32,788 bases of DNA from Ignavibacteriota bacterium (GTDB lineage Bacteria > Bacteroidota > Ignavibacteria > UBA10030). Shown here in pieces: positions 15,089 through 26,973 of the stretch. The stretch spans positions 1 to 32,788 of the forward strand of contig JAKEEG010000014.1 of NCBI GenBank assembly GCA_022616555.1, written 5' to 3'. The position numbers and the translations under genes were made by a program. Within the stretch, counting starts at the first letter, position 1; each line of letters opens with the position of its first letter. The notes beneath the pieces were generated by a model, which did not search any database, had not been told where the DNA came from, and was given only the letters and a program-made list of their open reading frames with translations.

Positions 15089-16243
15089 ATGCCTTCACCT
15101 CAAAAATACATCGCCCACCTCGACCTCGACTGCTTCTTCGTTTCCGTCGAGCGCATCAAGGACCCATCGCTAAACGGCAAGCCTGTAGTCGTTGGCGGAA
15201 GCCCGAAGGGGCGCGGCGTGGTCGCCTCCGCGTCGTACGAGGCGCGGAAATTCGGCGTACGTTCCGCCATGCCGGCAGCACAAGCGCTTAGGCTTTGTCC
15301 CCAGCTAATTTTCGTGCGCGGGAGCCACGGCGAGTACGGGGAATACTCCAACAAGATTTACAAGCGCCTCTGCGAAATCGCTCCCATCGTCGAACGCGCA
15401 TCAATCGATGAATTGTATCTCGACTTCACCGGCTGCGAGGCAATCTACAACAACGACCTGCCCGGCTTCATGAAAATATTACAAAAAATGGTGTGGGAAG
15501 AATTCCAGCTCCCCTGCACCATTGCGCTGGCGTCCAACAAAACCGTCGCGAAAATCGCAACCGGAGCCGTGAAGCCTGCTGGTGTGTGTTACATTCCGCC
15601 CGGCACGGAGAAAGAATTTCTCGCCCCAATGCCCATCGATGTCATTCCCGGCGTCGGTGCCAAAACGTCCGAATCGCTCAAACGTCGCGGCATCAACTCT
15701 GTCCGCGATATGCAGAATATCCCAAGAGGGCAAGCCGCCGACATGCTTGGCAAATTCGGGTCGTGGATTTACAACGCCGCAAACGGCATGGGCTCGGATG
15801 TTGTCTCGCCCGAACACGAACGCAAGAGCGTCGGGCATGAGGAGACGTTCACGCATGACATCGGCGATACACGCGAGCTGGAAAAAATTCTCTTCAGGCA
15901 AGCGGAGGAAGTCTGCTCCTCCCTCCGGCGACACGGATGGAAGGCGAAAACGATTACGCTGAAACTCCGGTACTCGGATTTCAAAACCATCACCCGCGCG
16001 CAGACGATCAAACCGACGGACGACGACCCGGTGGTCTTCAAAACCGTGAAGGAACTGCTCCACAAGGCCTATAATAAGAAGCAGAAAGTCCGGCTCATCG
16101 GCGTGCGCGTATCGGAGTTCGTGGAAGAGGAGGCCGAGCTGCAGCTCTTTTCAACGACCGGCGCGCGCAAAAATATGCTGAGCGCCGTTGACCGCATCCG
16201 AAAGAAATTCGGCGACGACGTCATCCACGTGGGCGGGGCGTAA
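15089..16243 (+). CDS. dinB: DNA polymerase IV (Y-family translesion polymerase)
   Basis: A 384-residue Y-family polymerase that copies past damaged bases. The catalytic acidic residues are in HLDLDCFF (Asp12) and SIDELYLDF (Asp-Glu). The steric gate that excludes ribonucleotides is Phe17. SASYEARKFGVRSAMP is the fingers motif, VIPGVGAKTSESLKRRG is the helix-hairpin-helix of the thumb, and the C-terminal little finger ends near residue 380. The C terminus has no clear beta-clamp motif by eye. The stop overlaps an ATG (TAATG), but that ATG probably does not start the next gene (see ndh). A 24-bp perfect palindrome follows seven bases after the stop. Confidence 0.96.
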   Translation: MPSPQKYIAHLDLDCFFVSVERIKDPSLNGKPVVVGGSPKGRGVVASASYEARKFGVRSAMPAAQALRLCPQLIFVRGSHGEYGEYSNKIYKRLCEIAPIVERASIDELYLDFTGCEAIYNNDLPGFMKILQKMVWEEFQLPCTIALASNKTVAKIATGAVKPAGVCYIPPGTEKEFLAPMPIDVIPGVGAKTSESLKRRGINSVRDMQNIPRGQAADMLGKFGSWIYNAANGMGSDVVSPEHERKSVGHEETFTHDIGDTRELEKILFRQAEEVCSSLRRHGWKAKTITLKLRYSDFKTITRAQTIKPTDDDPVVFKTVKELLHKAYNKKQKVRLIGVRVSEFVEEEAELQLFSTTGARKNMLSAVDRIRKKFGDDVIHVGGA

Positions 16244-16249
16244 TGCGGA

Positions 16250-16273
16250 AGGCGAGGATATATATCCTCGCCT
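16250..16273. repeat. REP-like 24-bp perfect palindrome, copy 1
   Basis: A perfect palindrome made of AGGCGAGGATAT and its reverse complement. Identical copies lie at 26270-26293 and 26670-26693. It stands directly after dinB and may protect or end its transcript. RAYT transposases are known to mobilise such palindromes, and one is encoded at 26344. Confidence 0.9.
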
Positions 16274-16404
16274 GCTTAGGTTTCCGACTCCCTTTTGCTT
16301 TTTCACTATTCGTTTCCCATCTTTCTTCTCTATTTGCCTCACGAAGCACTGTACAAATTGAATACCTTCTTGTCACTTTGTGGCCTTGGTGGACAATTTT
16401 TTCT

Positions 16405-26241: not shown

Positions 26242-26269
26242 GATAACGTAACAAATAGATATCTTGGGA

Positions 26270-26293
26270 AGGCGAGGATATATATCCTCGCCT
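26270..26293. repeat. REP-like 24-bp perfect palindrome, copy 2 (possible nrdJ terminator)
   Basis: Identical to the palindromes at 16250 and 26670. Here it is followed by TTCTTTATTTT, so it can act as a terminator for nrdJ. It lies just upstream of the RAYT promoter. Confidence 0.9.
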
Positions 26294-26306
26294 TCTTTAT
26301 TTTGGA

Positions 26307-26335
26307 TTGAAATTTTTTGCTTCTTCGGTTATATT
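26307..26335 (+). promoter_or_regulatory. Promoter of the RAYT gene
   Basis: TTGAAA (26307-26312), a 17-base spacer and TATATT (26330-26335) predict a start near 26342, two bases before the ATG, so the mRNA may be nearly leaderless. Confidence 0.5.
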
Positions 26336-26343
26336 GCTCCACC

Positions 26344-26973
26344 ATGCGCCGCCCTCACCGCAACTCCCAAAAACGCTATTACGAAGATAATGCGGTCTAT
26401 TTCATTACGACGGTCACGTACGATCGGCACCCATATTTTCGCGAGCCAATTTTGACAGAGTTGTTCATCCGTAACCTATGGTTCGCGAAAAAACTCAAAC
26501 AATGCGAATTATACGGTTATACCGTATTGCCGGATCATGTACATCTATTGATTCAACCAAAGGGAAAGGAGAATATTTCGGGAGTGATGCATAACATCAA
26601 ACGCGTCTTTTCCTTACAGGCAAATCAAATAATTCTTTCTCGCCGGTTGGAAAATAAAAAAACCGGGGAAGGCGAGGATATATATCCTCGCCTGCGAAAT
26701 GATGATCGGTATGCAAAACTTCGTTGGTCAGAAACCCTAAAGCGGTTACACCACCGTTTCATCAAACAACACGGCACAAACCACAATTTCCCTCCCTTCA
26801 AATGGCAATCCTCGTTCCGCGATCATCTTATCCGTGACAATGACGATTACGACCACCACATCGCATACATCCGCGACAATGCCATGAAACACGGATTGAT
26901 AAATACGGCAGAAGATTGGTTATGCATGTGGGTGGATGGTATTTTGGAGCCGGTGTTTTCTGAAACGCCGTAG
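26344..26973 (+). CDS. REP-associated tyrosine transposase (RAYT, Y1/IS200-like)
   Basis: A 209-residue single-copy Y1 transposase-like protein. RAYTs nick and join single-stranded DNA at REP palindromes. The metal-binding HUH motif is DHVHLL in YTVLPDHVHLLIQPK, preceded by the RRPHRNSQKRYYEDNAVYFIT start typical of the family. The candidate catalytic tyrosine is in YDHHIAYIRDNAMKHGL. A third copy of the 24-bp palindrome lies inside the gene and encodes GEDIYPRL in a linker between the HUH half and the tyrosine half without breaking the frame. ATG 26344 was chosen because homologues usually begin near RRPHR; a longer frame from 26317 exists but runs over the predicted promoter. No insertion-sequence ends are seen, as expected for a domesticated RAYT. 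Confidence 0.92.
   Translation: MRRPHRNSQKRYYEDNAVYFITTVTYDRHPYFREPILTELFIRNLWFAKKLKQCELYGYTVLPDHVHLLIQPKGKENISGVMHNIKRVFSLQANQIILSRRLENKKTGEGEDIYPRLRNDDRYAKLRWSETLKRLHHRFIKQHGTNHNFPPFKWQSSFRDHLIRDNDDYDHHIAYIRDNAMKHGLINTAEDWLCMWVDGILEPVFSETP
26670..26693. repeat. REP-like 24-bp perfect palindrome, copy 3, inside the RAYT gene
   Basis: The same 24 bases as copies 1 and 2, exactly 400 bp after copy 2. Being 8 codons long, it leaves the frame open. Confidence 0.9.

Follow-up and report, generated by a model that had tools for sequence, protein, structure and literature searches.

Why would a transposase gene hold, within its own reading frame, a palindrome that also lies elsewhere in the genome? 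The question is raised by the window, the whole 32,788-nucleotide stretch of DNA from an Ignavibacteriota bacterium (contig JAKEEG010000014.1) analyzed here. As the preliminary description had claimed, three identical perfect 24-bp palindromes (AGGCGAGGATATATATCCTCGCCT) were found in the window, at positions 16250 to 16273, 26270 to 26293, and 26670 to 26693; dinucleotide shuffles of the window gave an expectation of zero such 24-mers. The full repeat unit proved to be 28 bp (GAAGGCGA...TCGCCTNC), not 24 bp, with no strand assigned to any copy. The upstream copy (26268 to 26295) is perfect over 28 bp, and the in-gene copy (GAAGGCGAGGATATATATCCTCGCCTGC, 26668 to 26695) pairs at 13 of 14 positions, with a perfect inner 24 bp, and encodes residues 109 to 117 (EGEDIYPRL). 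The remaining copy (16248 to 16275) lies 7 bp past the dinB stop codon. This stretch (16243 to 16275) is also read as the opening codons of the ORF that follows, which encodes a pyridine nucleotide oxidoreductase with a cyclic-nucleotide domain; that ORF is over-extended, and its actual start probably lies further downstream.

The ORF that holds the last palindrome in frame runs from 26317 or 26344 to 26973, and the ATG at 26344 was chosen as the start because M..HRNSQKR corresponds to the family N terminus. The encoded protein (26344 to 26973, forward strand; 209 residues) carries an HUH motif, H65-V-H67, and its proposed identity as a RAYT (REP-associated tyrosine transposase) was confirmed. 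It matched Pfam Y1_Tnp (1e-9) and scored 110.6 bits against NCBIfam NF047646 (REP-associated tyrosine transposase; cutoff, 80), a profile matched by all 50 homologues surveyed below. An AF2 model (pLDDT 89) had as its top PDB fold match 4er8 (E, 1e-8), the structure of a RAYT in complex with a REP hairpin, and 4er8 was the nearest solved structure by sequence as well. The gene thus combines a Y1_Tnp/HUH domain with a RAYT-specific profile, and its score against transpos_IS200 (26.6 bits; cutoff, 55) places it outside IS200/IS605. In the model, the palindrome falls in a variable loop of approximately residues 98 to 118 (26635 to 26698, forward strand; pLDDT ∼63) between helices 78 to 97 and 122 to 143, and the insert is modeled as a low-confidence surface loop beside the IS200/RAYT fold.

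That the palindrome belongs to a dispersed, REP-like class was borne out by the source genome, in which the core occurs in 7 exact copies and in 14 copies at up to three mismatches, with flanks that are unrelated beyond a GNA...TNC edge. Dispersal of the REPs in the same genome agrees with RAYT membership; the copy inside the RAYT and the genome count of 7 to 14 set the repeat apart from GTAG-type REPs, which are extragenic and high in copy number. The core was absent from 60 other genomes of the same family and order. Around the window RAYT, one copy lies upstream and one inside, and none was found just downstream. The upstream copy looks as if it doubles as the terminator of the preceding class II ribonucleotide reductase gene, since the stem at 26266 to 26297 followed by TATTTT scores as an intrinsic terminator. 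Between this copy and the RAYT gene lies a promoter-like site, TTGAAA-17-TATATT (26307 to 26335, forward strand), a consensus match of a kind found no more often than expected from shuffled sequence. The 400-bp spacing between the 26270 and 26670 copies was considered as meaningful and rejected: it looks like a coincidence, because the distances in relatives differ (∼468 and 420 bp). Three other non-IS200 Y1_Tnp genes of the source genome were searched for in-gene palindromes; two (L016 and L018) have none, and L019 has only a different, flanking repeat. A second palindrome population of the same kind, with the core ACGTGGCGCCACGT, was also seen in this genome in about eight copies (for example, G000:C9:83513, C22:220, C70:10729, C74:47603, C74:52073, C79:589, and C96:3). 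No RAYT of the in-gene-palindrome subfamily cognate to this core was present in the source assembly; its gene was possibly lost or left unassembled.

Is the in-gene copy peculiar to this gene? The genomes of 84,980 species were scanned with the family alignment, and 50 usable ORFs were kept, from records titled as Ignavibacteria, Spirochaetes, Patescibacteria groups, Cloacimonadota, Margulisbacteria, Caenarcanales, Marinimicrobia, and others. A 28-bp palindrome pairing at 12 or more of its 14 positions was found in 43 of the 50, and 37 of the 50 contain within the ORF a perfect palindrome of 18 bp or more, versus 71 of 10,000 codon-shuffled ORFs (0.7%). Throughout, the palindrome occupies a single loop that follows the helix NFSRNxNxI and precedes FKWQKSFHDH, and the copy at 26668 to 26695 aligns in place with the palindromes of 42 homologues. 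Homologues from other genera (∼40 to 50% identity) carry different palindromes at this same place, with a constant plan, GNAGGCGA-N6, mirrored, and a variable inner half-site. Since 43 of 50 homologues across phyla carry a palindrome here, each with its own core, these comparisons make it a long-standing trait of the subfamily that has been kept repeatedly. The preliminary description therefore holds as to the RAYT, the dispersed REP-like repeat, and the in-frame copy, but its reading of a local event, in which the element moved into this one gene, does not. Three further members of the family proper (L186, L188, and L192) turned up in a fresh 380-genome sample of one phylum, and all have the palindrome. 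An intact copy is absent from L067, L069, L074, L083, L091, and L093 and decayed in L059; the copy is therefore not essential for the family. Nor is it a property of all RAYTs, an idea that was dropped after 27 other RAYT-profile proteins of Spirochaetota were found to lack one.

The main rival to a kept element is passive tolerance: REPs often land near the transposase gene, and the exposed loop alone tolerates 9 to 10 extra residues, with no function. Model confidence in the loop is low, in keeping with flexibility, and some members lack the loop; presence of the palindrome changes at least six times on a tree built without the insert columns; and extra in-gene copies occur at other places (L071 at residue 77, L053 at residue 23, and L050 overlapping the stop codon). 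REPs are also reported to arise preferentially near rayt genes (PMC2817692). However, in the same 50 genes the unconstrained flanks (600 bp) contain 19 palindromes of at least 22 bp versus 39 in the ORFs, nearly all of the latter in one loop, and the presence of the palindrome in 43 of 50 homologues over large divergence, with decay rare, exceeds what tolerance predicts. We consider passive insertion rather unlikely. The density per kilobase of perfect palindromes 22 bp or longer was 1.28 in RAYT ORFs, 0.027 in other ORFs, and 0.28 in intergenic DNA of the same loci. By the criterion used, under which 15% of control stretches also give a match, 21 of 50 homologues have no flanking palindrome within 600 bp. 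A flanking palindrome accompanied 8 of 9 members without an intact in-gene copy versus 20 of 41 others (P = 0.06), a comparison in which the GC filter misclassifies L065, which has both copies. Repetition within the loop was seen as well: the palindrome, or one half of it, is tandemly repeated there in L060, L078, L095, L072, and L097, and in L060 (residues 107 to 185) an internal duplication contains two palindromes.

What is kept at this place could be the peptide or the DNA. The palindrome is in frame and translated in every intact member, which speaks for a function of the encoded peptide. However, it is read in three frames (f0, f1, and f2) that yield unrelated peptides (GEDIYPRL, KARSRDLAF, and QRRRCASSP), the loop is of low confidence, and members without the insert have otherwise intact ORFs. 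GEDIYPRL recurs only in L060 and L061 (Patescibacteria-type), with the same DNA core, and is not conserved through different DNA; as a conserved peptide it is ruled out by the other frames and peptides. Of the two findings that the preliminary description named as refuting it, conservation of this stretch through different DNA and absence of the 24-mer from the rest of the genome, neither was obtained. A functional peptide is thus largely refuted, and we regard it as very improbable. The DNA behaves differently: the tree holds 33 cores and at least 34 core changes, and in column pairs 97.6% of cells are paired, a percentage that is partly built in because the palindromes were chosen as palindromic. 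That choice affects neither the fixed place nor the both-sided changes, which occur at 12 of 14 pairs and involve 136 cells, versus 34 in shuffles and at most 18 for slid structures. Because the half-site varies, the strands change together, and three frames are used, it is the DNA palindrome that is kept, and not the peptide. The RAYT coding sequence is thus a case in which DNA symmetry, and not the protein, sets the constraint.

Two positions stand out within the variable palindrome. A3 (39 of 39) never varies, nor does T26, with which it pairs, and G4/C25 hardly varies; this constancy fits the A3G4 guide/CT cleavage rule that measurements on RAYTs established (PMC8266576). GTAG-type REPs have GTAG or GTGG located 5' of the hairpin; the palindromes here end in GNAG (GAAG, GCAG, or GTAG), but as part of the stem on both sides.

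Symmetric change might also be produced by mutation, with template switching at hairpins keeping palindromes perfect, so that symmetric changes would not reflect selection. Quasi-palindrome correction would yield outer arms that vary and remain symmetric, and outer arms of this kind do occur within single genomes (L079, L066, and L055). Such a process accounts for perfection but not for the fixed place in the gene or for the match to genome cores, and hairpin templating would give no self-complementarity to the central 4 nucleotides, whereas nearly all copies are symmetric to the center. We judge this explanation improbable. As an observation in its own right, copies within one genome in L066, L079, L055, and L083 share a core and differ in their outer arms, which are nonetheless symmetric; these variants (perfect palindromes of up to 56 bp) hint at template-switch correction.

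The match between in-gene cores and dispersed palindromes was then compared across loci. Palindromes outside the gene differed from the half-site of the RAYT at the same locus by 2.0 of 10 positions, with 20 of 32 identical, versus 4.9 of 10 mismatches and 0.8 of 32 identical when compared with the half-site of another locus; none of 10,000 permutations did as well. The window core was present in exactly 3 of 33 genomes, those whose RAYT carries that core, and in one of these (G108) both copies lie inside the gene. The core TTCGAA was less exclusive, occurring in its own two genomes and in three whose RAYT has another core. In a Kerfeldbacteria genome (G107), the cores CGATTCGCGAATCG, AATTTGGCCAAATT, AGGATATATATCCT, and ACACGTCGACGTGT were counted from a listing at 10, 6, 3, and 1 copies, and a later paralogue search found four RAYTs of the family carrying exactly these four, that is, the three commonest cores of the genome plus one rarer core. 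The cores were listed first and the paralogues sought afterwards, with L057 and L061 already known and the two commonest cores predicted. Several minor cores of G107 have no cognate RAYT in the assembly, and in G048 the in-gene core is not the commonest core of the genome. The dominant core of G117 belongs to L143, a RAYT without an in-gene copy that has GGTTAATTAACC palindromes on both sides. This genome (Brevinematales, 2.6 Mb, many contigs) shows more than 100 palindrome-pattern matches, mostly with the core CGGTTAATTAACCG, an expanded population; copy numbers are low (2 to 14) in many genomes.

The in-gene hairpin could instead limit expression of its own gene, through RAYT protein or RNA folding acting on it as DNA or mRNA. 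The RNA hairpin folds strongly (−21.8 kcal/mol for 64 nucleotides; z, −4.3), and many of the genes have another copy tens to ∼200 bp upstream. Against autoregulation, the hairpin lies ∼325 nucleotides into the coding sequence and not near the start, no T-run follows it and it is therefore no terminator, and the upstream copy in the window precedes the predicted promoter. We think such control unlikely.

From the place, symmetry, and genome match of the in-gene palindrome, we infer its function, and the reading that we prefer, with a probability of roughly 0.55, is that of a RAYT subfamily whose gene permanently holds its own cognate REP-like palindrome as a co-inherited copy of the substrate. 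The palindrome would be the substrate of the RAYT, and the inner half-site would be a specificity tag read by each enzyme. The in-gene copy would serve as a linked source: whether by inheritance or by transfer, the enzyme would arrive with a substrate that it can use, and the hairpin may become exposed in cis as single-stranded DNA when the gene is transcribed and replicated. The window palindromes at 26270 and 16250 would be dispersed copies of the in-gene element. The phyla are mixed on the tree, which suggests horizontal transfer. A search of plasmids gave a single remote match.

RAYTs, their REP flanks, coevolution of the two, and intragenic REPs are already known from the literature. Described RAYT/TnpA_REP systems, or REPtrons (Nunvar 2010, PMC2817692; PMC8266576), share with the present subfamily the transposase family and fold, cognate dispersed palindromes, co-diversification of enzyme and palindrome, a GTAG-like head, and the CT dinucleotide. 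In the described REPtrons, however, REPs flank the gene, whereas here a copy lies inside the coding frame, often as the sole copy near the gene, and unlike the described REPs the present palindromes are symmetric to the center with GNAG at both ends. Intragenic REPs (Di Nocera 2013, PMC3733652) are likewise read in frame, inside varied host genes (e.g., uvrA and recB) at mostly varied sites, and Rickettsia palindromic elements, as cited there, are palindromic repeats that have inserted into genes in frame, at exposed sites. The present case differs from intragenic REPs in that the host is the transposase itself and the place is one, conserved across phyla. The Rickettsia elements are not known to be paired with a transposase or to match the gene in which they sit, and the present palindromes differ in both respects. 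IS200/IS605 elements share a Y1 HUH transposase that recognizes end hairpins, but those hairpins mark the ends of the element, beyond the ORF, with element-specific guide and cleavage sites, and the present palindrome lies inside it. The open-access papers searched describe no RAYT ORF that carries its cognate REP at a conserved place, an absence that is no proof of novelty.

A broader proposal can be put forward only tentatively. It holds that these transposase genes are self-tagged: the master copy of a replicating palindrome would be the coding sequence itself, the gene alone would be a complete transferable unit, the inner hexamer would be a specificity code, and the REP population would be seeded and refreshed from inside the gene, with loop-hosting having arisen in several RAYT subfamilies. 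In other RAYT subfamilies of Patescibacteria-type genomes, GTAG-headed single palindromes with GTAGCTGGG arms occupy the homologous loop of L153 and L190, and REPIN-like inverted pairs occupy that of L189, L193, L195, and L150, again in other subfamilies. The L156 RAYT has several perfect flanking palindromes of another type (TAGC.GAGCCTTAAGGCTC.GCTA) and none in the gene.

These observations bear on how RAYTs and REPs remain matched and on the way in which REPs spread. In this widespread bacterial RAYT family, the enzyme and its probable substrate seem to be locked into one gene. If each gene carries its cognate palindrome, enzyme-substrate pairs could be read from sequence in many phyla, including Patescibacteria. 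The inner hexamer would then be a testable recognition code, and core swaps among paralogues within a genome would be a direct test of specificity.
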